Origin: a virus
DNA length: 21,052 nucleotides
Virus record (IMG/VR): IMGVR_UViG_3300017772_000172
Coordinates: 1-21,052 of that record
Reading direction: 5' to 3' (one strand)
Position 1 is the first letter of the stretch; every line of letters begins with the position of its first letter. Positions 1,698 through 21,052 of the stretch are shown piece after piece. The notes below the pieces were generated by a model. It was given only the letters and a program-made list of their open reading frames with translations, was not told the DNA's origin and did no database searches. The position numbers and the translations under genes were made by a program.

Positions 1698-1725
1698 TTG
1701 ACGGATTTGCAAACACCAGTATAAT
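1698..1725 (+). promoter_or_regulatory. Rightward early promoter (sigma-70 type)
   Basis: TTGACG (1698-1703) is followed by 16 bases and a perfect TATAAT (1720-1725). Transcription would begin near 1732, about 29 bases before the first early gene. Eleven of twelve core bases match the consensus, so host RNA polymerase should read this early in infection. Confidence 0.85.
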
Positions 1726-1760
1726 TAACGCCAACAACAACACAGACAGGAGACGACAAA

Positions 1761-2027: not shown

Positions 2028-2043
2028 ATCTAGTGCATCATGC

Positions 2044-2067
2044 GAGCCTATTGACACCAGTAGGCTC
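2044..2067 (+). repeat. Hairpin GAGCCTA-10-TAGGCTC
   Basis: A perfect 7-base stem (2044-2050 with 2061-2067) encloses a 10-base loop just after the first early gene. No T run follows, so it is not a normal intrinsic terminator. It could be an RNA-processing or stability hairpin. The loop contains TTGACA, which may serve as a promoter -35. Confidence 0.5.
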
Positions 2068-2079
2068 CAGTGATTACAC
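2051..2079 (+). promoter_or_regulatory. Possible secondary early promoter
   Basis: TTGACA (2051-2056) is followed by 17 bases and TTACAC (2074-2079), with TGA before it as an extended -10. The -35 and spacing are ideal and the -10 is weak. It lies between the first and second early genes, in the loop and right arm of the hairpin. It could boost transcription of the small-gene array. Confidence 0.35.
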
Positions 2080-2105
2080 TACGGAAAACAACGAAGGATA
2101 ACGAT

Positions 2106-2294
2106 ATGACCTATTTGGAATGGAAAGAACACAACGTGCACTATGTGCTAATTGATGACGATGGCGATATGTACGCTGAGGTCACACTGCCTAACACCTA
2201 CACGCTAGAGGCGCGTGAAGAAATCATAGGCGCAATGGCAAAAGTTACCTACACCAAGTGGTCGGAAGCCACAGAATACAATCACGAAGGATAG
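2106..2294 (+). CDS. Small early protein of unknown function (62 aa)
   Basis: The start is placed at ATG 2106 because AAGGA lies at the right distance upstream; an in-frame GTG at 2070 would add 12 residues but falls inside the possible promoter. The product MTYLEWKEHNVHYVLIDDDG continues with an alternating polar pattern and ends in a short helix (LEAREEIIGAMAKV). It is slightly acidic and soluble, and no family is recognised. The next gene starts four bases after its stop through the repeated junction motif seen across this array. Confidence 0.68.
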   Translation: MTYLEWKEHNVHYVLIDDDGDMYAEVTLPNTYTLEAREEIIGAMAKVTYTKWSEATEYNHEG

Positions 2295-2297
2295 ACA

Positions 2298-2465
2298 ATG
2301 AACACTACAAAAAAGCTAGATCGCTTCTCCGCGCAGTGGTTCGACATACGCGCTGGCAGGGATTCCATACCGGAGAACGAAACAACAAAACAACGAAGGA
2401 TTGAATTGGCCACGGCAATCATCATTCAGTTTTTAGCAATGGAGACGGAGATAAAGACATGCTAG
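2298..2465 (+). CDS. Small early protein of unknown function (55 aa)
   Basis: ATG at 2298 follows the preceding stop by three bases, with AAGGA upstream (the repeated TAGACAATG junction). The product begins MNTTKKLDRFSAQWFDIRAG, is basic in its first half, and ends in a hydrophobic-acidic helix (ELATAIIIQFLAMETEIK). The stop overlaps the next start by seven bases. No family is recognised. The hydrophobic patch IIIQFL is too short for a membrane span. It is accepted because it fills the gap exactly and has a ribosome site. Confidence 0.62.
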   Translation: MNTTKKLDRFSAQWFDIRAGRDSIPENETTKQRRIELATAIIIQFLAMETEIKTC

Positions 2466-2764
2466 CAGCACCAATATATAACGGCGACGAACTACGCCAC
2501 GAGTTTCAAAGTTACGGTAGAGGCGAGCAGTTCAGCCGCTGGGGGTTTGATGCTCTTTTCAAGTTCTTAGATGACTTTTCCGAAGACACTGGTGAAGATA
2601 TTCAGCTAGATGTTGTCGCTTTGTGCTGCGAATGGTCAGAATACGACAGCATCGAAGACGCTTGCGCGGAGTACGGCGACGATATCCAGACACTTGATGA
2701 TTTATTTGACCACACTATGGTGTTATTGCTTGACAATGGCGGCGTAGTGGTGCGAGACTTTTAA
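2459..2764 (+). CDS. Highly acidic conserved phage protein (101 aa)
   Basis: The protein carries about 26 Asp/Glu against 5 Lys/Arg in 101 residues, so its net charge is near -20. The core FDALFKFLDDFSEDTGEDIQLDVVALCCEW (about residues 30-59, two cysteines at 56-57) resembles a widespread hypothetical phage family with the pattern ALxxYLEExEEDTGExIExDxIALCCE. The start ATG 2459 follows GGAG. Such charge recalls DNA-mimic antirestriction proteins (Ocr, ArdA), but no sequence similarity to those is claimed. It overlaps the upstream gene by seven bases and is followed by a 25-base gap. Function unknown. Confidence 0.8.
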   Translation: MLAAPIYNGDELRHEFQSYGRGEQFSRWGFDALFKFLDDFSEDTGEDIQLDVVALCCEWSEYDSIEDACAEYGDDIQTLDDLFDHTMVLLLDNGGVVVRDF

Positions 2765-2789
2765 CAACAGCAACAACGGAGCAAACAGC

Positions 2790-2960
2790 ATGAGAAAACT
2801 ACAGCTAACACGAGTCGATGGTATCTGGACGCTAAAGGAAGACGGACGGATCAAACTCACACACGAAAGCTACAATGAGATTTGCAGAGGCATCAACTCA
2901 CTAGTGCGAGCGTATGAGGAACACAAGGTACAGCATCAATTGGAGGTTACTGCACAATGA
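2790..2960 (+). CDS. Small early protein of unknown function (56 aa)
   Basis: ATG at 2790 has a CGGAG ribosome site 10 bases upstream. The product begins MRKLQLTRVDGIWTLKEDGR and ends in a charged helix (LVRAYEEHKVQHQLEV). The first half could form a short beta hairpin or small sheet and the second half an amphipathic helix. It overlaps the next start by four bases (ATGA), the classic coupling arrangement. It is basic and soluble. No family is recognised. Confidence 0.65.
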   Translation: MRKLQLTRVDGIWTLKEDGRIKLTHESYNEICRGINSLVRAYEEHKVQHQLEVTAQ

Positions 2961-3145
2961 GAACAAGCGAAAAGGAAAAACAATATATGCACAATGCCAT
3001 TGATATTGAACTGGCAGTACTATATGGTCTACAGCAAACACTAGCAGACAAGGTAAACCCTTCGCCTCTAGAGGTTGAATACTTCCAGAAGTGCATATCT
3101 GACCAACACCGACGGATCAACAGAATTAAAAAGAGAGGATTCTAG
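2957..3145 (+). CDS. Small early protein of unknown function (62 aa)
   Basis: ATG at 2957 overlaps the previous stop by four bases and has TTGGAGG upstream, the best ribosome site in the array. The product begins MRTSEKEKQYMHNAIDIELA and appears entirely helical, with a basic C-terminus (HRRINRIKKRGF, residues 51-62) that could contact nucleic acid. It has a single cysteine. No family is recognised. The gene ends two bases before the next start in the shared TAGACATG junction. Confidence 0.68.
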   Translation: MRTSEKEKQYMHNAIDIELAVLYGLQQTLADKVNPSPLEVEYFQKCISDQHRRINRIKKRGF

Positions 3146-3147
3146 AC

Positions 3148-3252
3148 ATGGCAGACGAACTAGAGCAAGAGACAGCGCAGGATCTACCCTTCTGGAAAGG
3201 ATGCCTGTGGTGGATCTGGGGATTCACAATAGGACTAATCATAGGAGCATGA
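3148..3252 (+). CDS. 34-residue single-span membrane miniprotein
   Basis: ATG at 3148 is preceded by GAGAGGA and lies two bases after the upstream stop. The acidic N-terminus (MADELEQETAQDLPF) is followed by a Trp/Gly-rich hydrophobic stretch from about residue 15 to 34 (WKGCLWWIWGFTIGLIIGA). This is long enough for one inner-membrane span. The stop is followed after three bases by the next start. It fits both junctions of the array, which is the main reason to accept such a short frame. It may be an inhibitor or anchor acting at the host membrane; holin function is unlikely from its early position and single short span. Confidence 0.6.
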   Translation: MADELEQETAQDLPFWKGCLWWIWGFTIGLIIGA

Positions 3253-3255
3253 GAC

Positions 3256-3573
3256 ATGATAGCTTATAAATTACTGCGGCAGCGCAAAGACGGCACACTA
3301 GGGCCATTATTCATCAACGCAAGCCAGAGAGTGCCTGTAGGTGAATGGTTAGAGGCAGAGAACCACCCAACGCGAGGGTTTGCCCAGCGTCAAGGGTGGC
3401 ACTGTACACTAACGCCCAACGCGCCACACCTGAAACTGGAGCCGAAAGGTAGCACACGAGTGTGGGCAATGGTTGACGTTGAGAATTTTGAAGAGTACAA
3501 TCGACCAGAATCTCAGGGTGGTACATGGGTACTTGCTCAGAGAATGAAAGTGATTAAAACAATTGGAGTATGA
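3256..3573 (+). CDS. Conserved hypothetical phage protein (105 aa)
   Basis: The product begins MIAYKLLRQRKDGTLGPLFI and contains the stretch NASQRVPVGEWLEAENHPT (residues 21-39), GWHCT (47-51) and RPESQGGTWVLA (82-93). This pattern recurs in a common small phage protein family of unknown function that I recognise by these motifs but cannot name. It looks like a compact beta-rich fold. The start ATG has GGAG upstream and lies three bases after the previous stop. Its end (TGA GAC ATG) repeats the same junction. Early position and conservation suggest a general role in infection, not yet assigned. Confidence 0.82.
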   Translation: MIAYKLLRQRKDGTLGPLFINASQRVPVGEWLEAENHPTRGFAQRQGWHCTLTPNAPHLKLEPKGSTRVWAMVDVENFEEYNRPESQGGTWVLAQRMKVIKTIGV

Positions 3574-3576
3574 GAC

Positions 3577-3747
3577 ATGAGTGCGACGGATGGAGTATGC
3601 CTGCACCAGATTGTGGGCGAACTAGAGAAGATTCAGAAAAGTATGGTGATGGATTCGAGGGAGGCGCGAGACGAATTAGAATGGCAAATATTGCAAAACC
3701 ACATTGACGGGATCGAAGAACTGATAGAAAATATCAACAACGCATAA
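3577..3747 (+). CDS. Small helical early protein (56 aa)
   Basis: ATG at 3577 follows TTGGAG and lies three bases after the upstream stop. The product begins MSATDGVCLHQIVGELEKIQ and from residue 10 on is a run of charged helices with regular Leu/Ile/Met spacing (ELEWQILQNHIDGIEELIE), suggesting a short coiled coil or dimer. It is acidic with one cysteine and no membrane span. No family is recognised. The next gene is separated by 18 bases that carry a fresh CAGGAG ribosome site. Confidence 0.65.
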   Translation: MSATDGVCLHQIVGELEKIQKSMVMDSREARDELEWQILQNHIDGIEELIENINNA

Positions 3748-3765
3748 CAACAGGAGCGTGAGACA

Positions 3766-3918
3766 ATGGATTTATACAGCGACGAATTCTGGCAGTGGTT
3801 AGATAAGTGCCCAGTGAACCACAACGCCAGTGTGCACAATGTGGACATGTACGGCACCAGATTGGGCAGTGTTAACTTTTGGATCGAAGACGAAGACAAC
3901 GAAGAACAGGAGCAATAG
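3766..3918 (+). CDS. Small acidic early protein (50 aa)
   Basis: ATG at 3766 is preceded by CAGGAGCGTGAGACA, the clearest copy of the repeated leader. The product MDLYSDEFWQWLDKCPVNHN ends in a strongly acidic tail (WIEDEDNEEQEQ, residues 39-50). Its three tryptophans in 50 residues are unusual. The acidic tail recalls C-terminal tails that bind partner proteins, but no partner is evident. It stops three bases before the next start. No family is recognised. Confidence 0.63.
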   Translation: MDLYSDEFWQWLDKCPVNHNASVHNVDMYGTRLGSVNFWIEDEDNEEQEQ

Positions 3919-3921
3919 ACA

Positions 3922-4197
3922 ATGGATTTATTTGAGCAACTAGGCATGAGTATTGGCGGACAGAGTGTAGCGGATCACATGGACTCGCTACGCGCCACCA
4001 GTGACACGAGAGCAATCGAGGCGCTGCACGAGCCGGACGATAGCGATCCGGTGGACTATGTGGTGACTGTAGAGATGGTCGTGTCTGCTACGTCAGAGGA
4101 CGAAGCGAAGCAATACGCACACGACATACTTGACACAGCAGAGCAAGAACTGGCAGACTTGATAGACACAGACATAACAGGAGCATTCGAGGTATAG
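3922..4197 (+). CDS. Acidic early protein of unknown function (91 aa)
   Basis: The start ATG 3922 follows CAGGAG and the stop/start junction TAGACAATG. The N-terminus (MDLFEQLGMSIGGQSVADHM) is followed by a disordered Asp-rich linker and then a probable alpha/beta unit, YVVTVEMVVSATSEDEAKQY (residues 46-65). That unit resembles small ferredoxin-like domains in which a beta strand precedes a helix starting with SEDEA. It has no cysteines and a strongly negative charge. The name of such a family cannot be given with confidence. It ends three bases before the next gene. Confidence 0.7.
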   Translation: MDLFEQLGMSIGGQSVADHMDSLRATSDTRAIEALHEPDDSDPVDYVVTVEMVVSATSEDEAKQYAHDILDTAEQELADLIDTDITGAFEV

Positions 4198-4200
4198 AAA

Positions 4201-4485
4201 ATGGATACTATAGACATATTTGTTGATCACTTTGTGATCCACTCTGAGAGTCGAGAGGCTCTGATACTCAACAGCAGTGTTGACGACTTCAAAAGTAACT
4301 TGCGCGAGCTTGTTTCTGCTGAGGTTAGAGAGACTCTGCTGGAACGTGTGAGAGCTTTAGATAACGAAATAAAACTTATTGAACCGCATAGGCGTGTAAG
4401 CCCTCAACACGACAGGCTTGTTGATGCTAGGACTGCTTTGATGCGCTTGCACAATGATCTTCTTTGGAATAAGGGAACTGGATGA
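4201..4485 (+). CDS. Early protein of unknown function (94 aa)
   Basis: ATG at 4201 follows the preceding stop by three bases (TAGAAAATG). A GGAG lies about 20 bases upstream, so initiation may rely on coupling. The product begins MDTIDIFVDHFVIHSESREA and is mainly helical, with LRELVSAEVRETLLERVRAL (residues 34-53) and a basic patch EPHRRVSP. It overlaps the next start by four bases. No family is recognised. Confidence 0.68.
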   Translation: MDTIDIFVDHFVIHSESREALILNSSVDDFKSNLRELVSAEVRETLLERVRALDNEIKLIEPHRRVSPQHDRLVDARTALMRLHNDLLWNKGTG

Positions 4486-4970
4486 ACATATTTTATTTAG
4501 ACAAATGCCCAACACGGGCAGCACAACAGCAGTGCGACAAGCACGTGGTAAAAATGATCCTAGAGAGCGCACAAATGCTCTCTACGGCTCACCACGAGTA
4601 CGATAGTGATCGTGCAGTATACAAGACCACACACAAGAACCATCCCAGCACTGTATGGGCTAGAGAGTGCACAAGCAACTATCGCTGGCTCTATGACCAT
4701 ATGATGGCGCTAGGCGACGAATATACCAAACGCTATGGTAAGGTACACTTGACCATTCAAAAGTGCCGTGAGGCGCTCAGAGAGCCGCCACAGGGTATGC
4801 CGTGGAATGTACACCACACACAACCGCCACAGTGTATGCCCGACGAATACAAGCGCGAGTGTTCTATAGCAGCCTATCGCTTGTACTACGCCAGCAAAGC
4901 TGATACAATCGACATGCGCTGGACTAACGCCAGCAGACAGTTTTTTAATCAACAGGAGATAGCAGCGTGA
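4482..4970 (+). CDS. Phage protein, possibly pyrimidine-dimer glycosylase-like (162 aa)
   Basis: The protein begins MNIFYLDKCPTRAAQQQCDK and has the strongly conserved block CDKHVVKMILESAQMLSTAH (18-37). It continues with NHPSTVWARECTSNYRWLYDH and CMPDEY, hallmarks of a protein family common in large and marine phages. The opening, a motif like DQHLxAEYRE and the helix with WLYDH loosely parallel T4 endonuclease V (DenV), which excises UV-induced pyrimidine dimers; that link is tentative. If correct it would repair sunlight damage in viral DNA. It is the largest of the early array. The start overlaps the previous gene by four bases, and its stop overlaps the following GTG. Confidence 0.72.
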   Translation: MNIFYLDKCPTRAAQQQCDKHVVKMILESAQMLSTAHHEYDSDRAVYKTTHKNHPSTVWARECTSNYRWLYDHMMALGDEYTKRYGKVHLTIQKCREALREPPQGMPWNVHHTQPPQCMPDEYKRECSIAAYRLYYASKADTIDMRWTNASRQFFNQQEIAA

Positions 4971-5191
4971 GTGACTCATATAGCTATGATGTAGACGTGA
5001 CAGATCCCAACGAACTAGACCCCATTGATCGCATGATACGCGACTTGGTGGACTACAAGCTAAACGTGTGCAGTGTGCAGGAACTGCTGGCAATGGCAGC
5101 GGATCACATGACACGAGATCTGGAGAACCGACCACTGTCTGAAGTGCAGGCAATACATAATGACTTATTTTCACGACAGGAGCTACACTAA
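4967..5191 (+). CDS. Acidic helical early protein (74 aa)
   Basis: The start is GTG at 4967 with CAGGAG eight bases upstream, overlapping the previous stop by four bases. The product begins MSDSYSYDVDVTDPNELDPI; from residue 20 it is helical and acidic, with RMIRDLVDYKLNVCSVQELL and LSEVQAIHNDLFSRQE. It has one cysteine and no membrane segment. The stop TAA shares its last base with the next ATG. No family is recognised. Confidence 0.7.
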   Translation: MSDSYSYDVDVTDPNELDPIDRMIRDLVDYKLNVCSVQELLAMAADHMTRDLENRPLSEVQAIHNDLFSRQELH

Positions 5192-5460: not shown

Positions 5461-5838
5461 ATGGCGGTAATTGAAGGTAAAGCACAATTCATCAACGTGA
5501 AAGAGACTGAGGTATACGAAGGTAAAGACACCGGACGATACACTGTCACTCTGACACTGAACGATGACACAAGCAACGAACTGTCCAGCAAGGGTGTTCG
5601 CCTGAAGTCCTACGGAGAAGGCTCTGAGGCTATCATGCAACGAAAGTTCGCCAGCAAGTACCCAGTGCGCGTGATAGACGCAGAGGGTGAACCGTTTGGT
5701 GGTGACATTCCAGCAGGCTCTACGGTGCGTATCTCGTACAAGTACGGTGACGAGCATCCTGTGTACGGTGTGCCTGTGTACATGGACGGTATTCGTGTGT
5801 TAGAGATGGGTGCGGCTGGTGTTGACGCAGCACTCTAA
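5461..5838 (+). CDS. Putative single-stranded DNA-binding protein (gp2.5-like)
   Basis: The 125-residue protein begins MAVIEGKAQFINVKETEVYE and has the beta-rich, charged pattern of phage SSB proteins with one OB fold. Examples are RYTVTLTLNDD (26-36), VRVIDAEGEPF and STVRISYKYG. It sits just before primase-helicase and polymerase, as expected for a replication SSB that coats single strands and coordinates them. Unlike T7 gp2.5 it ends in GAAGVDAAL with no acidic tail, so contact with the polymerase may differ. TAGGAG lies nine bases before ATG. The family assignment rests on size, pattern and context. Confidence 0.72.
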   Translation: MAVIEGKAQFINVKETEVYEGKDTGRYTVTLTLNDDTSNELSSKGVRLKSYGEGSEAIMQRKFASKYPVRVIDAEGEPFGGDIPAGSTVRISYKYGDEHPVYGVPVYMDGIRVLEMGAAGVDAAL

Positions 5839-9146: not shown

Positions 9147-9615
9147 CATCAATCCGAATACTGGTAAAGTCTTTTACTACAAGGACAATCCTAAAACTAA
9201 AAAAGCTGAGAACGCCTTACAGATGTACGTAGATGGTAAGTACGTCCCTAAGTCACATCCGCTACACAAGCCCGGACGCTACAAAGGCTTCACTGATGCA
9301 GCCTTCAGTTCTCTACAGAACTACGAGCTTGCCAAGCAGGGTCAGGTGTACGTACTGGTCAACCCAGCATTTCCGGGCTGGTGTAAAATAGGGATGGCTG
9401 TGGACGCAGAGGATAGGCTCAAGCAGTATCAGACTAGCTCTCCCTACAGAGACTACGAGCTAATCAAGGCATATGATACTGATGACCGACGCACCGCTGA
9501 GAAGGCCGCACACGAGCTTCTAGCGCAGTCACATGAACGTAAGGGCGAGTGGTTCTACATTCAACACCCTGTCGCTACAGAAATACTGGACGGACATTTC
9601 AATGAAAACAGTTAA
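9118..9615 (+). CDS. GIY-YIG family nuclease (T5orf172/Mug113-like)
   Basis: The start is taken as TTG 9118 because AGGGGAG lies seven bases upstream; an upstream TTG at 9100 lacks this. The 165-residue product has an N-terminal block (NPNTGKVFYYKDNPKTKKAE, 12-31, and KYVPKSHPLHKPGRYKGF) and a C-terminal GIY-YIG fold. The latter shows VYVL (77-80), WCKIGMA (88-94), Arg100, and AEKAAHELL with Glu128 and Glu133 as possible catalytic acids. It probably cuts DNA in replication or host degradation, and could be a free-standing homing enzyme. It overlaps the polymerase by 29 bases and the exonuclease by 14 bases, so it is part of the operon. Confidence 0.85.
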   Translation: MEQAGQKHTNINPNTGKVFYYKDNPKTKKAENALQMYVDGKYVPKSHPLHKPGRYKGFTDAAFSSLQNYELAKQGQVYVLVNPAFPGWCKIGMAVDAEDRLKQYQTSSPYRDYELIKAYDTDDRRTAEKAAHELLAQSHERKGEWFYIQHPVATEILDGHFNENS

Positions 9616-10465
9616 CACAGTTGTCGATGACATCTACGAACTGATGACCACAAAGTCTGCTGATGAGTCAGTGGACGTTGAGGCAGAGATTGACAAGTTC
9701 GGAGAGGCCGTCAAACAGCTTATGCGTACTGAGTTTATGCCTGATGCGCCTCGTGACGGACGTAAGCTACGCCTGTCCAACATAGGCAGAGACGATAGGT
9801 ACTTGTGGCACCACTACAACGACACAAGCGCAGGAGAGGAGATCCAAGGGCATACGTATGTGAAGTTCATGTACGGACACCTGATTGAGGAAATGCTCTT
9901 GTTCTTGTGTCGCCTGTCGGGGCACACGATCACTGATGAGCAGAAGGTATGTCAGGTAGAAGGAATCACTGGACACATGGACTGTCGCATAGACGGTATC
10001 GTGACTGATATCAAGTCTGCAAGTACCTACGGCTTCAGGAAGTTCAAGAGAGGCGCTATAGCCTACGAAGATCCTTTTGGATACGTTGACCAGTTGAAGG
10101 CATACGCCTACTCAGAAGGTGAGACTAAGTTCGGATGGTTGGTCATGGACAAGTCCAATGGTCACCTGACGTACCTGAAGTATGACCTAGAGGACACAGA
10201 GGCACCTGTGTACAACACCATCAAAGGTGACATTGCCGAAAGGATACGTCACGTAAAAAAGCTCGTAGAGGCAGAGGAGATACCACCAGTATGCGCGGAA
10301 CCATTAGCGGATGGCAAAAGTGGAAATATGCGATTACCCGCAAACTGTTCCTACTGTCAGTACAAGCATTCATGCTATCCAGAACTGCGTACTTTTCTGT
10401 ACTCAAGCGGGCCAAGGTTCTTAACGGAGGTGGTTCATGAGCCTAAAGTCCAAGAGATCACGTAA
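9602..10465 (+). CDS. PD-(D/E)XK exonuclease with four-cysteine cluster (RecB/Cas4-like)
   Basis: A 287-residue nuclease, the likely functional counterpart of T7 gp6 in DNA degradation and recombination. Motifs in order: GHLIEE (92-97), GHMDCRIDG with Asp127 (124-132), TDIKSAS with Asp136 and Lys138, and QLKAYAY (164-170), the QxxxY signature of the RecB family. The C-terminus has Cys231, Cys249, Cys252 and Cys258 in a CxxC-x5-C context. This is a layout used by Cas4- and AddB-like nucleases to hold an iron-sulphur cluster or zinc. The ATG at 9602 overlaps the upstream gene by 14 bases. The end overlaps endonuclease I by 29 bases. Confidence 0.9.
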   Translation: MKTVNTVVDDIYELMTTKSADESVDVEAEIDKFGEAVKQLMRTEFMPDAPRDGRKLRLSNIGRDDRYLWHHYNDTSAGEEIQGHTYVKFMYGHLIEEMLLFLCRLSGHTITDEQKVCQVEGITGHMDCRIDGIVTDIKSASTYGFRKFKRGAIAYEDPFGYVDQLKAYAYSEGETKFGWLVMDKSNGHLTYLKYDLEDTEAPVYNTIKGDIAERIRHVKKLVEAEEIPPVCAEPLADGKSGNMRLPANCSYCQYKHSCYPELRTFLYSSGPRFLTEVVHEPKVQEIT

Positions 10466-10826
10466 GCAGAGTATCTATAGGTCTGGACTAGAGAAACGAT
10501 TTGCACAGTCAGCACCTAAGAGACGCTATCTGTACGAGCCATATGATGTACCTTACGTGATGCACAGGAAGTACAAGCCAGACTTTGTGGACAAGAAGAC
10601 GGGTGACTACATTGAGACTAAAGGATTCTTTAGGACAGGAGACACCCAGAAGTACACATCAATACGTGACAGCATCAAGCCCACTAAACTAATCTTTGTC
10701 CTGTCAGACCCCAACAAGAAGGTCAGGAAAGGCTCTAAGATTACGATGGGTCAGTGGTGTCACAAGGAAGGTTTTGAATTTTACACAGTTGACGAGTATG
10801 TAGACCATGTCACTAACAATGGATGA
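10437..10826 (+). CDS. Endonuclease I, Holliday-junction resolvase (T7 gp3-like)
   Basis: This 129-residue protein resembles T7 endonuclease I, which resolves branched DNA before packaging and helps degrade host DNA. It has the basic start and YRSGLEKRF with catalytic Glu19, then YEPYDVPYVM, YKPDF with Asp49 and YIETKG with Glu60 and Lys62, the complete E...D...E-x-K set. It ends near the core, so it lacks much of the T7 C-terminal tail. ATG at 10437 has GGAGG about eight bases upstream and overlaps the exonuclease. The genes 3-like and 6-like are next to each other here, unlike T7. Confidence 0.94.
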   Translation: MSLKSKRSRKQSIYRSGLEKRFAQSAPKRRYLYEPYDVPYVMHRKYKPDFVDKKTGDYIETKGFFRTGDTQKYTSIRDSIKPTKLIFVLSDPNKKVRKGSKITMGQWCHKEGFEFYTVDEYVDHVTNNG

Positions 10827-14161: not shown

Positions 14162-15129
14162 GCTTACTAGATACTAGAGATTACTACAAACCGTTTGACC
14201 ATCCTTGGATGTTTGACTACTACTCACAACAGAATCAGATGCACTGGTTTCCAGAGGATGTACCTTTGCACAATGACGTTAAAGATTGGCAGACAATGAC
14301 TGATGAAGAGAAGAATCTACTGACTCAGATCTTCCGTCTGTTTACACAGTCTGATGTAGACGTAGGTGCAGGGTACGTTGATAGATACATGCGTATCTTC
14401 AAGAAGCCTGAAGCACGTATGATGATGTCTAGCTTTGCTAACATGGAGTCCATACACCAACATGCCTACAGCCTACTACTGGACACCGTAGGGATGCCAG
14501 AGGTGGAGTATAAGGCGTTCTCAGAGTACGAGGCTATGGCTGACAAGCATGAGTACATCAACGCTGTGAAGGTCACTAAGGGCGACAAGAAGTCAATTGC
14601 TAAGGCACTGGCTATCTACTCAGGATTTACTGAAGGGCTACAGTTGTTCTCTAGCTTCATCATCCTGTTGAATTTTCCAAGGTTTGGTAAGATGAAGGGT
14701 ATGGGACAGATCATTACCTACAGCATACGTGATGAGTCCATGCACGTAGAGGCAATGACAAAGCTATTTAGGGAGTTTATGCAGGAGAACATAGACCTGT
14801 GGACTGATGACTTCAAGGCTGAGATCTATCAGGCATGTCGGGAGATGGTTGACCTAGAGGATAGGTTCTTGGATTTGGTGTTTGAGCAGGGCGATATTCC
14901 CGGCTTGACTAAGAAGGAGATGCAACAGTACATCAGGTACATTGCTGACCGTAGGCTGCTACAGTTGGGACTCAAGACTAACTACAATGTCAAAGAGAAT
15001 CCACTGAACTGGCTGGACGATGTGTTAGGTGTAGAGCATCAGAACTTCTTTGAAGGCAGAGCTACCACCTACATGAAGGCTGGACTCAGGGGGGACGTTG
15101 GCAAGGTTAAGTTTGCTAATGTAGCCTAG
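14158..15129 (+). CDS. nrdB: Ribonucleotide reductase class I beta subunit
   Basis: NrdB houses the di-iron tyrosyl radical used by NrdA. The ligands are all present at the E. coli spacing: Asp66, Glu97, His100 (ESIHQHAY), Glu159, Glu193 and His196 (RDESMH). Tyr104 is the radical tyrosine, so the class Ia mechanism is supported; there is no tyrosine loss as in metal-only variants. The protein has 323 residues, shorter than the 376 of E. coli. The start is TTG 14158 with AGGGG upstream, overlapping mazG by four bases. Its stop overlaps the stop of the opposing leftward gene. Confidence 0.95.
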   Translation: MSLLDTRDYYKPFDHPWMFDYYSQQNQMHWFPEDVPLHNDVKDWQTMTDEEKNLLTQIFRLFTQSDVDVGAGYVDRYMRIFKKPEARMMMSSFANMESIHQHAYSLLLDTVGMPEVEYKAFSEYEAMADKHEYINAVKVTKGDKKSIAKALAIYSGFTEGLQLFSSFIILLNFPRFGKMKGMGQIITYSIRDESMHVEAMTKLFREFMQENIDLWTDDFKAEIYQACREMVDLEDRFLDLVFEQGDIPGLTKKEMQQYIRYIADRRLLQLGLKTNYNVKENPLNWLDDVLGVEHQNFFEGRATTYMKAGLRGDVGKVKFANVA

Positions 15130-16919
15130 CTTTCCTCATCTGCTGCTGCTGGTGCCCCTATAAACGGTTGTGCACCGGCAGTTAGCACAGCGGCTCTTCT
15201 GCCTGCCACTGCCTTGTCTTTAGGCTCAACTTTAGCTTCAAACTCTCTAATGACTCTAAAGTGATAATCTATAGGGCTTTCTCCCTTGTTTATTTTGATT
15301 CCACTAAGTCCTTCTAGTCTATCAACAGAGGCATCAACTTCAGCTTTCAACTTAGGGTCTTTTGCACCCGTCTCAGTGTTTCTAGTGGGCGTATAAGCAG
15401 TCTTTCTCTTGAAGTTAGACTTCTGCATAGGAACAGCAGCCACAAGATCTCCACCTCCCACGGGATTGACACCGAACAAATCATGCCCGTCTGAGATTAG
15501 AGTGTACACATCTCCTGTCTTTGGATTGATAGCTATGAAGTCATTTACACCGCCTAGCTCTTTAGACTGTGAATGGTGTGAAGACCCTATGTAGATGTGA
15601 GGGTCGCCTTTGCCGCCCTTGTTTACTTTAATACCTTGAGAGGCAAAGTATTGCGTTAGATCACCTTCCGTAGCCCCACTTAAAGCCCTGTTTTTGTTCT
15701 TCTTCAGCCATGTTTTTAATGAAGGAACTTTAGTTGCGTCTTCTGTCCCTATCCTAAACTTATTGACTTCTTTTTTTAATGCTTCTCCTGATAGGATTCC
15801 CTTTCTATTTACAATTTTCTCTACTGCCTTTTCGGGCAGAGATCGCTTAAATTGTCTTTTAGCTATCTCTTTTTTAGACAAAGTAGGCTTTGTTCTTTTA
15901 CCTGTGACAACATCTTTTTGGTCTGATAACATATTCAGCACAATGGAAGATTTCTGAGAAGACCCTACAACCCCTTCGTCACCTACACGATTAACACCTG
16001 CTGGTCTCTTTATCTTAATCTGTGCGTTTCTTTTTTTACTATCCTTGTCAATGCCATGCACTTTATACATATGATTCATGGCTCTGTTCTGGATTACTTC
16101 AGGGACATCTACACGTATGTTATTCCCTCGACCAAACAACTGCTCTCTGATAGTCTTGGTGTCTGTGGCAGGAAGCACATCAATAGTATCTATAACACCT
16201 ATTGGGCCTTCAGCAATAAACGGTGCTGCGCCTCTACCCATCTGCCTACGTATGCTGTCCACTGTCTGTGCAGAGCCGTAACTTATCTCTTGTTCTCTAG
16301 TTCCAGACCCTATTTCTCCAGACCCCTTGCCCTTACTGTAGGGTATGCCTGTCTCCCTCTCGTATGCAATAGCTCTAGGGTTAACAGAGTCAGCAATAGC
16401 CCGTGGTAAAGCACTAAGCGAACCTTTCCCTGCTGCCATTATCTTACTGCCCATGCCGCCGCCATAGAACCCCGGCAGCATAGTAGGCATGGTACGAGCT
16501 ACTGTGTTAAGACCTCCCTTGACAGCCGCAGCGCCGGGAATAAGCCCTAGTATGTTACCCGCAGCCGCTAGGTCACGCATCATGCCGGGACGCTCCTGAG
16601 CGTACTGTATGGCCTCCTGACCCAGTTCTGTCTCAGCCAGTGTCTGTACACCTGACGCTATAGCTTCTTTAGCAGCATCAGGCATCGCATAATCAACTAC
16701 GTCCCCTATAGGGCTTAGAGCAGTACCTATAACAGTTGAGGTATCCCACATAGCCTGACGGAAGCGGTTTGCCTCTACCTCTTCTGCAATACGATCACTC
16801 TCAGCCATCTCTGCCTGTGCAGCCTTGACTTTACCAGTGACATAATCGTCACCGTACTGCTGTCTACGGGCTGCTTGGCGCTTTATACGGAGTTGTCTAC
16901 CTTCTCCCCTTCTACTCAT
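15126..16919 (-). CDS. Large virion/ejection-type protein with unknown internal domain (597 aa)
   Basis: The start is ATG 16919, with GAGG six bases upstream; a TTG at 16931 would add four residues. The N-terminus is basic and helical (MSRRGEGRQLRIKRQAARRQ), then Ala/Gly-rich (about 50-165, with hydrophobic stretches such as AAAGNILGLIPGAAAVKGGL). The second half is Lys-rich and contains a compact block around residues 436-486, HIYIGSSHHSQ, LGGVNDFIAINP and TLISDGHDLFG, that I cannot assign. A basic linker and an Ala-rich tail follow. Size, composition and place among similar genes suggest an internal virion protein that enters with DNA. An enzymatic role for the block is possible. Confidence 0.72.
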   Translation of the reverse strand: MSRRGEGRQLRIKRQAARRQQYGDDYVTGKVKAAQAEMAESDRIAEEVEANRFRQAMWDTSTVIGTALSPIGDVVDYAMPDAAKEAIASGVQTLAETELGQEAIQYAQERPGMMRDLAAAGNILGLIPGAAAVKGGLNTVARTMPTMLPGFYGGGMGSKIMAAGKGSLSALPRAIADSVNPRAIAYERETGIPYSKGKGSGEIGSGTREQEISYGSAQTVDSIRRQMGRGAAPFIAEGPIGVIDTIDVLPATDTKTIREQLFGRGNNIRVDVPEVIQNRAMNHMYKVHGIDKDSKKRNAQIKIKRPAGVNRVGDEGVVGSSQKSSIVLNMLSDQKDVVTGKRTKPTLSKKEIAKRQFKRSLPEKAVEKIVNRKGILSGEALKKEVNKFRIGTEDATKVPSLKTWLKKNKNRALSGATEGDLTQYFASQGIKVNKGGKGDPHIYIGSSHHSQSKELGGVNDFIAINPKTGDVYTLISDGHDLFGVNPVGGGDLVAAVPMQKSNFKRKTAYTPTRNTETGAKDPKLKAEVDASVDRLEGLSGIKINKGESPIDYHFRVIREFEAKVEPKDKAVAGRRAAVLTAGAQPFIGAPAAADEES

Positions 16920-18522
16920 CTTCGTCCTCAAAGGTAACTTCAGTGCCTGCTGTGGTGTTTTGTATTAGGTCAATCAAGAATAGTCTGTCAGCCTTTAGTT
17001 GAGCAACTAGATCAGAAGCCCCTGACTTCTCTGCTGCTTTAATCGCTAGACCTGTTGCTTTCACCATGTTACCAAACATCTTTTGTGTAGCAGGACGAGT
17101 AGTTAAATATCCTATGCCGAAAGCTGACATCCCTGCTCCAGCACCAAGAGATGCCGCTAGAATAGTGGGGCTTTGCATTAAAGCTGTGCCTGCCCCAGTA
17201 GCAACAGACGCTGTAGCGGCTAGTCCGGGGCCAGTAGTGCTTACGAAAGGGTTTACCCTACGCCCTATGTCGGCCAATGTGCTTGATGTAGAGTTTTGTA
17301 TTTTAGTCTCTAGGAAATCTTTAAGACGTAGAGAATAGCTTTGCTCAGTTAGTAAGTCTGACACATCAACATCAATAGCTTCCCTGTCTACAATCTCGTT
17401 AAGTTTAGTCCTAACTTGCTGTAAAGATGCAGAGCCAATTCTAGTTTGATCAGAAGTGTAGAAGTTTCTCCTGTCTCCAAAAGTTTTATCTAGTTCTCTA
17501 CGGAGCAAGAGCAAAGACTCTAGACTTTTATCGCCCTTCTGAACTCTATCGACTATTATGTCAAACAAATCTCCTGCTGCCTTAGCTTCTTGCATCTGCC
17601 TCCATTTTACACTAGAAAACTGCTCTTGAAGTGAAAGTTCAAGTTCTTTAATAATATCTGATGGGTTAATACGTACTTCGCTTTTTCTAAGTCCTGTTAT
17701 CAGTTTGTTTTCTACGCGACTTATATTTTGCTCTAGGACATTTCTAGCTTTGAAAGGACTACCGGCCTTTAGACTAGGTAGTTTTTCTACTGCATAGTCA
17801 AGCGCCCTAGAAGTCAAAGAATCTCTAGGGTTCCATACCCTACGTTTGATAATCCGTCCTGTCTCCACTAAATCATCAGGATCCATCTGTGTCCTGATAG
17901 GGGCAAAATATTCAGTCAAAGATTCTTTTCTATTAGCTGTAGCTCTGCCCTCGCCTTTACTTCTTACCCACTCACCAAGCGATTCAACAGGTTTTCCTTT
18001 AACTCTAGGCAGCAAGCTCCTTCCGGGAGCCTGTATTCCAATGTTTAGGAAACCCTCAGCAATCTTCAGTAGTCTAGCGTTTTCTGGGCCGCGCTTGCCC
18101 CACTCTTGTAGGTATTCAGTACCCTTATCAAAAGCTCTAGCAAACTCCTGTCCCGCTTCAGTAGAGCCTAAGTATTCCATAAACTCTGATACTGTCTGAA
18201 AAGGTGCTGTCTCAAGAATACCAGAGCGTTCTAATCCTTCACCTGCAATTTCAGCAGCGCCGCCTATTACCTCACCACCAAGTATTCTTGCACCCTTGCC
18301 TACAAAGCCTGTAGTAAGATCCCTGTAGTCTATAGGTTCCTGTGCAATATCAGCAATGGCCTGACCGCGCTTCGACAAAATATCCGTAGTAGAACGCATC
18401 ATCGTGTCGTTCTGTCTACGTTGTATCTCTCGCTCTAAATCAGCAGCAACGTCTGTTAGCCCTTGTTTTTGAGCTTCTACAAACGCTTTTGCTAATTGTT
18501 CGTTAGATAGTTGCTGTGCCAT
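16912..18522 (-). CDS. Internal virion/DNA-ejection-type protein (536 aa)
   Basis: The product begins MAQQLSNEQLAKAFVEAQKQ, is helical throughout, and near residues 433-473 has a Gly/Ala-rich hydrophobic stretch (GLAATASVATGAG, ILAASLGAGAGMSAFGIGYL) that could insert in or line a membrane channel. It ends in a very acidic tail (TFEDEDE). A middle region (about 200-400) has many charged helices, as in long rod-like virion proteins. No catalytic motif is seen. It overlaps its neighbours by eight bases and one base, and all three genes read leftward, like T7 gp14-16. The ejection role is inferred from these features. Confidence 0.72.
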   Translation of the reverse strand: MAQQLSNEQLAKAFVEAQKQGLTDVAADLEREIQRRQNDTMMRSTTDILSKRGQAIADIAQEPIDYRDLTTGFVGKGARILGGEVIGGAAEIAGEGLERSGILETAPFQTVSEFMEYLGSTEAGQEFARAFDKGTEYLQEWGKRGPENARLLKIAEGFLNIGIQAPGRSLLPRVKGKPVESLGEWVRSKGEGRATANRKESLTEYFAPIRTQMDPDDLVETGRIIKRRVWNPRDSLTSRALDYAVEKLPSLKAGSPFKARNVLEQNISRVENKLITGLRKSEVRINPSDIIKELELSLQEQFSSVKWRQMQEAKAAGDLFDIIVDRVQKGDKSLESLLLLRRELDKTFGDRRNFYTSDQTRIGSASLQQVRTKLNEIVDREAIDVDVSDLLTEQSYSLRLKDFLETKIQNSTSSTLADIGRRVNPFVSTTGPGLAATASVATGAGTALMQSPTILAASLGAGAGMSAFGIGYLTTRPATQKMFGNMVKATGLAIKAAEKSGASDLVAQLKADRLFLIDLIQNTTAGTEVTFEDEDE

Positions 18523-19865
18523 TAGTTTACTCTATAGAAGTTACTTAAAAATGCTTGAGTGTCAGGGTCAAATTGTGATAGGTCTATTTGATCTACGTCT
18601 GATTGGTCAATCTCATACCTATCTGGTATGGCTGTTTTCCTCTGGAAATAGTCATAATCTGCTTGGTCTATTATCTTTTTGTTTTGAAGATGATCTAGAT
18701 CCTGAATAAAGCCTACCTTAGCTCGTTCAATAGCGTCTCTTTCAATAATTAAAAGTCTTAATACATCTTCTTCAGTAACGCTAGTCAAATCTGCTGCTGT
18801 CATTTGTTTCATAAAGGCAAGGTCAGTGTTTGATACACCAGAACCAGCACCAAGAGCAGATATATTAGCAAGTACCTGCCCTGCTCTTTGACGCATAAGT
18901 TCAATAGTGTTTTGAGTAGCATTTTTAGTAGGTCTACCAGTAAGGCCACTAACTATCATATCTACTTCTTTTTCTATGCCACTGAACCTACCAGCTAAAA
19001 TACCTTCATCGACAAGACGCATGGCACGATTGTTCTGTATTGCTTGCTCTTTCAGGTCTAGCATTTCATTATAATCGTCACCAAAAGTTGAAGCAATAGT
19101 ATCGTCTATCTTACTTCCCAGCGTTTCAGTTCTGTTGATAACAGTTGACACATTAGGGTCTTCTTCAACAACGCCAGCAGCTACAGGAGTTTGCCATTTG
19201 CCGTCAGCAAACACTTTACCGCCACGAATAGGCAACTGTACAATAGATCCATCTTGCTTCTCAAAGCGTTTACTCTCAGTGCCCTCGCCCAACGTACCCA
19301 TCTTTTCTATTTCTTCATAGTCAAGACCTACAACATCTTCAGCTTTTAATCCGTAAGCAGTAGCTAGAGCATCTAGAGCAGGCTGTCGTTCAGTTCTGCT
19401 TACGTCTTCAAACTCTAGTTTACGTAAGTCTTCAGCCAGTTTTCCTAGTTGTTCTGTGCCTGCGTTATCAATAGTTTGAGTGTACGAGTCAGGCAACTTC
19501 AAGGCAGTAGCCCTGTCTTTTAAGCTGCTCCTTAAAGCAGTTAGTTGAGCCTGCTGCTGTTGTTTCTGAGCTAACTCTTGCATCTTACCTGTAGCAGCAA
19601 TCCTCTGCTCTGGTGTACCAAACTGAGCCAACAGACCGTACATTTTAGCCATCTTCTGTGGGTCGTTGGGGTCAATAGATGATAAACCCTGTTGTAGCTT
19701 CTCCTGCGGAGTCCTCATGTCCATCCCCAGCGCACCGCCAATTTGCCTAGAGGCTTGCTGTGCAAAGGGACTTAACGCTGGCTGACCTGTAAGTAAACCA
19801 GAAGTTCCTTGAGTAGGAGATACCTTGTAGCGATCTAATACGCCTGTTCTTTCTAAAATACCCAT
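18522..19865 (-). CDS. Structural/ejection-type protein (447 aa)
   Basis: The product begins MGILERTGVLDRYKVSPTQG and contains a Gln-rich helical region near residues 90-110 (KMQELAQKQQQQAQLTALR). A later helical domain has GILAGRFSGIEKEVD, ELMRQRAGQVLANISALG and SGVSNTDLAFMKQM, a pattern seen in large podovirus structural proteins. It has no cysteine and no membrane segment. Its TAA shares a base with the next start. A virion or internal core role is likely; catalytic activity is not apparent. ATG at 19865 has AGAAAG upstream, a weak ribosome site. Confidence 0.75.
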   Translation of the reverse strand: MGILERTGVLDRYKVSPTQGTSGLLTGQPALSPFAQQASRQIGGALGMDMRTPQEKLQQGLSSIDPNDPQKMAKMYGLLAQFGTPEQRIAATGKMQELAQKQQQQAQLTALRSSLKDRATALKLPDSYTQTIDNAGTEQLGKLAEDLRKLEFEDVSRTERQPALDALATAYGLKAEDVVGLDYEEIEKMGTLGEGTESKRFEKQDGSIVQLPIRGGKVFADGKWQTPVAAGVVEEDPNVSTVINRTETLGSKIDDTIASTFGDDYNEMLDLKEQAIQNNRAMRLVDEGILAGRFSGIEKEVDMIVSGLTGRPTKNATQNTIELMRQRAGQVLANISALGAGSGVSNTDLAFMKQMTAADLTSVTEEDVLRLLIIERDAIERAKVGFIQDLDHLQNKKIIDQADYDYFQRKTAIPDRYEIDQSDVDQIDLSQFDPDTQAFLSNFYRVN

Positions 19866-19867
19866 GT

Positions 19868-21052
19868 TTAACTGATTCCTAATAGATCTAAAATACTACC
19901 GCCTACGTCACCTATCTCACCAAACAAGCCACCTATGCCTGAGCTAATACCGCCTGCTGAAGCAGCCGCTTGTTGTCCTTGAGCGCTCAGTAAAGCACTG
20001 TATATCTGTGCTATATTGGCTGCTCTAGCTTGTTCAGCACCTACAATATCCTCTAGTCCAGATACGCCTGCTTCAGTCATTAATCCAGCACCTTGTCTAC
20101 GACCAAGATCAGCAATACTAGCAAGAGATATTCCGGGAGTTAGTGAAGCAAGTAACTCTTGCTCTGGTCTATATTGTAACCCCATAGAAAGACCAATGTT
20201 GCCTAACTGTCCTGCTTGTAGTTCTTGTGGCAACCCTGCTGCCCTACCGCCTAAACCAAACATACTCTCAGCAAGTCCCATCTGTTGCAGTTGTTCTGCT
20301 TGTGCTTGTCCTAGCGCACCTAGAGATGCTCTAGCCTTAGCTTCTTCCTGTGCTTGTGCTAAAGCAAACTGCTCAGGAGAACCACCAAACTGTGCTGTAC
20401 GTAGACCTGTACGTCCCTGTGAAGCTAGGCGTTCTTCCAATGCAAGCTGGGCACGTTGCTCTTCAGGGCGTTGAGTAGCTCTAATGCGCTCATAGACATC
20501 AGATTCTCTCTGTGCCATAGGAGCCATAGCACCCGTTAGGAAGCCGCCTACGCCTCCTAGAGCCTGTCTCTGGATACCTGATACATCTGGTATACCTGCA
20601 CCAAAGCCTCCTGTAGCGGGGGCTGTAGGAGCTTGTGCGCCTAAAGCTCTTGCAGCCATTGCTTGTTCTGGTGACTCAAAAGTACTAAAGTATGTCTCTG
20701 CTGGGAGTGGCACAGGCCCACCAGTTACATATCCGGGGTCTCCGGGCTGTCGGGCGTAATCAACACCCATGCCACCAAATCCTCCAAGTAAGCCACTTGT
20801 AATACCTTGTAGCTTCTCTTGTTGTGCAGCCATAGCAGGAGACAATGTAGTAGCAAACCCACCTTCAGGTGTAGTGCTTACGCCACCAAAGCCAGTAGAG
20901 ACAGTGAAGGGTTTGAAGGCCGCTGCTTCTGCACCAGTTCTCCCAATCTCAGCCATGCCTGCAGATGCTTGTTTAGCTACATCACGTAAGGAGTTAAGCT
21001 CATCAATGCTAAGTCCTGCACCTATTAGTGAGCCACCAGCACCGCCTAAGAA
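19868..21052 (-). CDS. Gly/Ala/Gln-rich structural protein (5' end beyond window)
   Basis: The frame is open to the right edge. An internal ATG at 20956 gives 362 residues, but 32 more codons upstream read FLGGAGGSLIGAGLS, then DELNSLRDVAKQASAGMAEI with no stop and the same composition, so the true start lies outside. The protein is low complexity, with PEQAMAARALGAQ, a Gln/Glu/Arg helical stretch and repeated Gly-Gly motifs, ending in GGSILDLLGIS. Such proteins in marine podoviruses are virion components near the tail or internal core. No enzymatic motif is seen. It is two bases from the next gene. Confidence 0.8.
   Translation of the reverse strand, partial: FLGGAGGSLIGAGLSIDELNSLRDVAKQASAGMAEIGRTGAEAAAFKPFTVSTGFGGVSTTPEGGFATTLSPAMAAQQEKLQGITSGLLGGFGGMGVDYARQPGDPGYVTGGPVPLPAETYFSTFESPEQAMAARALGAQAPTAPATGGFGAGIPDVSGIQRQALGGVGGFLTGAMAPMAQRESDVYERIRATQRPEEQRAQLALEERLASQGRTGLRTAQFGGSPEQFALAQAQEEAKARASLGALGQAQAEQLQQMGLAESMFGLGGRAAGLPQELQAGQLGNIGLSMGLQYRPEQELLASLTPGISLASIADLGRRQGAGLMTEAGVSGLEDIVGAEQARAANIAQIYSALLSAQGQQAAASAGGISSGIGGLFGEIGDVGGSILDLLGIS

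Follow-up and report, generated by a model that had tools for sequence, protein, structure and literature searches.

Single-gene changes at the stop-start joints of a small-gene array in a virus genome fragment

The early region of a 21-kb piece of the IMG/VR virus record IMGVR_UViG_3300017772_000172 (this whole stretch of 21,052 nucleotides (nt) is called the window below) holds small genes linked by short joints, in which a stop codon is followed closely by the next ATG, most of them behind a Shine-Dalgarno sequence (SD). A sequence-only reading had proposed that identical joints could let single early genes be swapped, gained or lost by recombination while translation stays in order. Do genes change at these joints, and does the joint sequence take part in the change? 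Comparison with related loci leads us to consider it likely that the genes of the early region are exchangeable and form a translationally coupled array, in which new gene pairs arise by rare short-homology recombination at the junctions, pass through selection and spread by homologous recombination.

Gene neighbours change mostly at the start codon

The array of small genes extends from 1761 to about 5460, 3' of a host-type promoter (Table 1). Direct reading of the sequence found the stop-start joints at all the places first listed, including the copy before 3766 whose stop lies further off (the working stop is the TAA at 3745-3747, and the joint itself reads GGAGCGTGAGACAATG) and the divergent TAG-AAA-ATG at 4197. 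Most joints had been described as lying behind a GGAG or AAGGA, and each does have a GGAG, AGGA/AAGGA or GAGG 6-9 nt 5' of its ATG. Several further early junctions are ATGA, GTGA or TAATG overlaps. Most genes encode the SD of the next gene in their last codons, followed by a stop that lies in the SD-to-ATG spacer or is completed by the next ATGA. Because the end of the preceding gene supplies the SD, fusion of a new gene at its ATG could leave no scar and allow immediate translation, and because each gene ends by encoding the SD of the next, the ATG would be a natural cut point.

Gene order was compared with 26 other IMG/VR loci, metagenomic contigs whose early regions overlap that of the window. 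Order is largely fixed and content differs by one or a few genes; as had been predicted, single early genes were gained, lost or replaced exactly at joints, with coupling kept. The loci contain 67 distinct neighbour pairs, with at least two upstream neighbours in 18 families and at least two downstream neighbours in 16. Gene 3148 (genes are called by their start position) is followed in relatives by 3256, fRDE, 3577 or 3766, and the gene upstream of 3577 is 3148, 3256, fRDE, f1 or an unrelated 51-amino-acid (aa) gene. Six different successors were found for f2, and the order of gene 2790 and f1 is reversed between L031 and L086/L022. Insertion and deletion (indel) events per aligned kb, which are phylogenetically non-independent, were about tenfold denser in the early region than in the replication module (49 in 33 kb versus 32 in 218 kb). 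Insertions were also seen at junctions without the noted motif (4482/4967, 4967/5191 and 3922/4482), some of which share only 0-4 nt.

The breaks in homology cluster at the start codon. With edges set by BLAST alone, start-codon intervals from -30 to +15, which make up 17% of the region, held 80% of the 1506 internal ends of high-scoring segment pairs and 69% of the 469 unique ends (non-independent counts). Where the same upstream gene is followed by different downstream genes, homology stops at a median of +2 from the A of the ATG (43 of 45 cases within -16 to +9); where the same downstream gene follows different upstream genes, it starts at a median of -1 (51 of 53 within -22 to +3). Relative to the window, homology blocks end at 2294, 3256-3259, 3562-3575, 3775/3896, 4192-4195 and 4482. 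Module edges therefore coincide with gene boundaries, as in boundary-sequence mosaicism, and since the usual edge is the ATG, it is generally the upstream gene that carries the SD, stop and spacer. The proposal of a cassette array exchanged through identical joints is in this respect only partly upheld: single genes do change at the joints, some of which share 13-30 nt, but most edges lie at the ATG and the stop and SD stay with the gene upstream.

Some genes owe their stop codon to a neighbour. The small gene fRDE of relatives lacks its own stop; it ends ..ETTGDET* by way of the ATGA when 3577 follows, and before 3256 it reads 14 nt into that gene and ends ..ETTGDESNDSV*. Likewise, the C-terminus of gene 3922 is ..FEV* (TAG) before 4201 and ..FEA* (through the ATGA of 4482) when 4201 is absent. 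L084 has 3148 fused directly to 3766, and there the TGA of the joint before 3766 is the stop of 3148 (ATA GGA GCG TGA). Unrelated genes can also have an ending in common: ACAACGGAGGCATAACAGCATG or a near copy ends f8 (L084), f7 (L327) and a 110-aa gene (L311), and GGAGCAAACAGCATG follows both u10 and n3 and also lies immediately before 2790 in the window. Separately, fRDE and gene 4201 are alike in their N-terminal halves (about 40% identity).

Table 1. Joints, genes and other elements of the window, and the fRDE gene of relatives
Feature	Position	Strand	Remarks
Joint 2294, GAAGGA-TAG-ACA-ATG	2282..2300	+	Between genes 2106-2294 and 2298-2465; relatives have f2 or f8 downstream instead
Joint GGAGATAAAGACATG before 2459	2447..2461	+	Gene overlap of 7 nt, overlapping start; not among the joints first listed
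Junction CAACAGCAACAACGGAGCAAACAGCATG	2765..2792	+	Its part GGAGCAAACAGCATG recurs at joints of unrelated genes: u10>f1 (L020), u10>f3 (L325), n3>2957 (L302)
Joint 3145, AGGATTC-TAG-AC-ATG	3136..3150	+	Gene 3148 has 5 different upstream genes across relatives
Joint 3252, GGAGCATGAGACATG, TGA-GAC-ATG	3244..3258	+	Gain/loss site of 3256-3573 and fRDE
Joint 3573, GGAGTATGAGACATG, TGA-GAC-ATG	3565..3579	+	
Joint before 3766, AGGAGCGTGAGACAATGGATTTAT	3752..3775	+	Holds a TGA unused by the present upstream gene (relic stop)
Joint 3918, AGGAGCAATAGACAATGGATTTAT, TAG-ACA-ATG	3908..3931	+	About 30 nt homologous to the joint before 3766
Joint 4197, GAGGTA-TAG-AAA-ATG	4185..4203	+	
Junction 4482/4967, GGAGATAGCAGCGTGAGT	4953..4972	+	Insertion site of f10 (L028, L014) or u3 (L160)
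Putative host-type (sigma-70-like) promoter, TTGACG ... TATAAT	1698..1730	+	Read in the sequence; kept in L005, L160 and L084
34-aa gene, one hydrophobic stretch, C-terminus ..IIGA*	3148..3252	+	4 alternative downstream and 5 upstream neighbours
105-aa single-gene module, phrog_12224	3256..3573	+	Missing from many relatives
56-aa gene	3577..3747	+	5 alternative upstream neighbours
50-aa single-gene module	3766..3918	+	Missing from many relatives
94-aa single-gene module	4201..4485	+	Missing from many relatives; chimeric form in L009
Conserved gene, Pfam Pyr_excise, phrog_624 (pyrimidine dimer glycosylase-like)	4482..4970	+	L020 keeps only a 5' remnant
Putative single-strand DNA-binding/annealing protein	5461..5838	+	Weak PHROG match to Gp2.5-like, E=0.00039
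PD-(D/E)XK / Cas4-domain exonuclease	9533..10465	+	
Phage endonuclease I	10437..10826	+	
Non-coding 78-nt element: conserved hairpin (GAGCCTATTGACACCAGTAGGCTC), TTGACA in loop, then SD	2028..2105	+	10 copies aligned
fRDE, small gene	L031 654-833; L012 375-554; L086 928-1095; L022 883-1050		

Shared sequence at the joints and the origin of new pairs

At some joints the two ends of an indel overlap over a considerable length, 30 nt for 3766, up to 19 nt for 3256, 14-17 nt for 3148>3766 and up to 13 nt for u3, inserted before 4967; joints sharing 13-30 nt, as had been predicted, are those at 3256/3577, 3766/3922, 3148>3766 and u3 before 4967. The overlap is 8 nt at f2>3148 and 3-4 nt at several others. 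As overlaps range from 30 nt to almost none, some events plausibly involved pairing at the joint, whereas others did not need it.

The early joints also resemble one another. When the best copy was taken, at least 5 nt left of the ATG were shared by about a third (21/63) of the pairs with the same downstream gene; when each junction was represented by a single copy, 14 of 63 such pairs did so versus 129 of 2099 unrelated early junctions (Fisher p=4e-5, the pairs being non-independent), and among other genes 1 of 136 did. At least 8 consecutive bases were common to 11 of 120 pairs of early start contexts versus 0 of 171 among the other genes, and 1000 shuffles of the early spacers gave a mean of 1.94 pairs and a maximum of 9. 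The sequence GGAGNNTGAGACATG, with up to 2 mismatches, matched 4 times versus 0.67 expected, a count reached in 0 of 100 shuffles; TGAGACATG with 1 mismatch (4 matches versus 7.2 expected) and TAGACAATG (12 versus 6.3) are each weak by themselves. Set against shuffles, the start-context pairs and the GGAGNNTGAGACATG counts show that joint similarity goes beyond chance but is modest as a repeat. Repetition is weaker in the Pelagibacter phages HTVC103P and HTVC115P, where 26 of 630 and 7 of 276 start-context pairs share at least 8 nt.

The strong form of the earlier proposal, in which one identical joint is a dedicated homologous recombination site for cassette exchange, is already weakened and quite improbable. 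The indels of 3256 and 3766 and the 3148>3766 fusion do share joints of 14-30 nt, but several joint types serve the early junctions, most edges lie at the ATG, junctions without the motif change too, and a single junction, 3148>3577, is spelled differently among relatives (TGAGACATG, TAGGAACATG and TGAGACAATG). Nor did the joint recur across phage genomes: among 2.9 million viral contigs of IMG/VR, the exact joint GGAGCATGAGACATG gave 47 matches versus 62 for a permuted-spacer control, no enrichment, which rules out a universal phage joint. Only five of the contigs among the 47 matches were recognised as belonging to this clade.

Carriage of the joint with gene 3256 into distant phages was likewise ruled out, as homologues in 12 other IMG/VR loci are without it. 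The 3256-3573 protein is a widely travelling early gene, with 53-68% identical homologues, without this joint, in unrelated phages; these include the T7-like Escherichia phage Pisces (between SAM hydrolase and kinase), the 149-kb Cronobacter phage CR8 and many IMG/VR contigs.

Illegitimate, homology-independent recombination could instead strike anywhere, with selection alone keeping genes whole and coupled, and the likeness of the joints would then be that of an SD and an A/C-rich spacer. We regard this as a real possibility, though one that falls short of probable. In its favour, most edges have little beyond the ATG in common, motif-free junctions also take insertions, and the exact joint lacks enrichment across phages generally. 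It does not readily account for the several events with a joint overlap of 13-30 nt that includes non-SD bases, for a spacer similarity among early joints that exceeds shuffles and is absent from the window's other genes, or for the unusually similar tails in different upstream genes of one downstream gene.

A further explanation is that gene content changes only through homologous recombination in conserved flanking genes, the joints mattering for translation only. The loci L083 and L008 provide a case of such exchange. They are almost identical throughout about 4.5 kb, the exception being a 143-bp tract (L083 1753-1895) with 22 differences. This tract spans the joint, from inside 3148 to inside 3577, and is the result of recent, ordinary allelic recombination that runs across the joint instead of occurring at it; with tract edges inside genes, a clean joint-bounded swap between the two loci is ruled out. 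The expectation that breakpoints fall at the joints was borne out by the clustering of edges at the start codon, but not by this near-identical pair. As a sole explanation, however, recombination in flanking genes is unlikely. It spreads existing pairs, but new pairs between non-homologous genes cannot arise that way, and 67 distinct pairs exist.

The L083/L008 tract is one of several observations that weigh against a coupled array exchanged by short homology at its junctions. Recurrent edges lie inside 3922 and 3577, and L020 (7483-7547) holds an approximately 50-nt 5' remnant of gene 4482. In L009 (157-441), gene 4201 is a chimera in which the first 24 residues are nearly the same and the C-terminal part is different; this version reflects exchange inside the gene. 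Almost no overlap was found for 4201 at 3922/4482 (the 3922/4201/4482 junction was read by eye), and u9 at 4967/5191 shares the ATG only. In addition, edge pairs share phylogeny and the relatives are metagenomic contigs, and edge counts are non-independent.

We nevertheless favour the coupled, exchangeable array. New neighbour pairs would arise by rare junction recombination guided by 3-30 nt, which may be the ATG alone, ATGA, TAGACATG, GGAGCATGAGAC(A)ATG, GGAGGCATAACAGCATG or others; joints of longer similarity may offer pairing sites, and shorter joints would need few bases. Selection for compact coupling would remove scarred products so that only seamless ones survive, and homologous recombination of the ordinary kind, acting in conserved genes on either side, could spread the resulting pairs through the clade. 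Candidate enzymes are the phage's own Gp2.5-like single-strand DNA-binding/annealing protein (5461, a weak match), PD-(D/E)XK exonuclease (9533) and endonuclease I (10437). We observed the joints, the neighbour changes, the positions of the edges and the relic and borrowed stops, whereas we infer the pairing step, these enzymes and a fitness benefit. A more specific version is tentative and on balance somewhat doubtful: since each early gene encodes at its end the SD of its successor, and at times lends or borrows the stop, any gene of the pool that starts with ATG would click in behind any other, unrelated proteins would converge on the same C-terminal tails (..GA*, ..TEA*, ..EQTA*), and the coupled joint itself would be a site of short-homology recombination.

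Gene content of the window and its virus group

The window genes include primase-helicase, family A DNA polymerase, exonuclease, endonuclease I, ribonucleotide reductase subunits and MazG. By DNA polymerase, the nearest annotated relatives are HTVC103P and HTVC115P (48% identity), and nucleotide matching of the window to annotated phages found no close phage; the group comprises uncultured bacterial viruses that are probably marine. Gene calls are based on open reading frames (ORFs), SDs and homology, and errors are possible among the very short ab initio calls. On the minus strand, 15126-20956 holds four large ORFs (601, 536, 447 and 362 aa), which probably encode structural proteins; none of the four had a PHROG match, and the 536- and 362-aa ORFs had no Pfam match. 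In the early region, Rfam gave nothing above the gathering score, and a single sub-threshold match to a miRNA family was judged to be due to chance.

The 78-nt element 5' of gene 2106, with its strong hairpin, occurs in three copies in L160 (4856-4932, 5134-5205 and 5398-5478), before u1, u2 and f2. Five of its 13 consensus pairs have changes on both sides, and changes in the arms are compensated in several copies. Its TTGACA and TACACT boxes were spotted by eye only. These features suggest that the element is a second, leader-type cassette end, resembling the promoter early stem-loop (PeSL) cassettes considered below.

Comparison with known mosaic systems

What places the mosaic edges of phages at gene boundaries is debated, the two models being targeting by short boundary sequences and random recombination followed by selection (stated in PMC3233612, debated in PMC3945230). 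The array is best read as a clade-specific variant of phage boundary-sequence mosaicism. As in the lambdoid phages for which the boundary-sequence model was described (PMC3233612), short conserved sequences between genes lie at module edges, here for some modules, and the modules are single genes. The array departs from that model in that part of the boundary falls within the coding sequence of the upstream gene, whose last codons contain the SD and stop, in that several joint types occur, and in that most edges coincide with the ATG and share no more than 3-8 nt. Sequence shared at both module ends was found for 3256, 3766, u3 and 3148>3766 (13-30 nt) but not for 4201 and u9.

The nearest sequence analogue is that of the start-associated sequences (SAS) and extended start-associated sequences (ESAS) of cluster K mycobacteriophages (PMC3203893), short AGGAG-containing repeats a few nt before the ATG of unrelated small non-structural genes. 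Here, too, a repeat lies 3-7 bp before the start codons of non-homologous non-structural genes. In both systems some repeats contain the stop of the upstream gene; half of the SAS have an added inverted-repeat element, to which the 78-nt hairpin corresponds here. However, SAS has a strict 13-bp consensus whereas the spacer is loose here, and the listed joints do not match the SAS consensus GGGATAGGAGCCC beside the ATG, having only AGGAG in common with it. The SAS-associated inverted repeats did not support RNA pairing (PMC3203893), in contrast to the changes on both sides of five pairs in the hairpin described here.

SAS was proposed to act in translation initiation and not in gene exchange (PMC3203893), and by analogy the joint might be a binding site for translation or for a DNA-binding protein, conserved for regulation. 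The sequence around the SDs is indeed common to non-homologous early genes and sits where SAS was described, but spacers vary freely between orthologous junctions, many early genes are without the motif, and there is no strict consensus outside the SD. A regulatory site is therefore a very improbable explanation of the joints.

T4-type PeSL cassettes, as described in a paper that cites them (PMC4503421), have promoter-like and stem-loop repeats between exchangeable early genes, and the element at 2028-2105 is similar to them in this description. Unlike PeSL so described, the main joints here contain no promoter, lie in coding sequence and span just 8-30 nt. Relaxed homologous recombination by Rad52-like annealing proteins (PMC3945230) would permit pairing at short diverged stretches. 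No Rad52, Red-beta or Erf-type recombinase was found among the scanned genes of the 21-kb window fragment, which has only the weak Gp2.5-like match, the exonuclease and the endonuclease I.

In this clade the same genes occur beside many alternative neighbours, resolved to the nucleotide, and relic and borrowed stops record which the former neighbours were; the two models of mosaicism can therefore be separated here junction by junction. For the annotation of small early genes it is relevant that neighbouring genes determine the C-terminus of the encoded protein and its stop codon.

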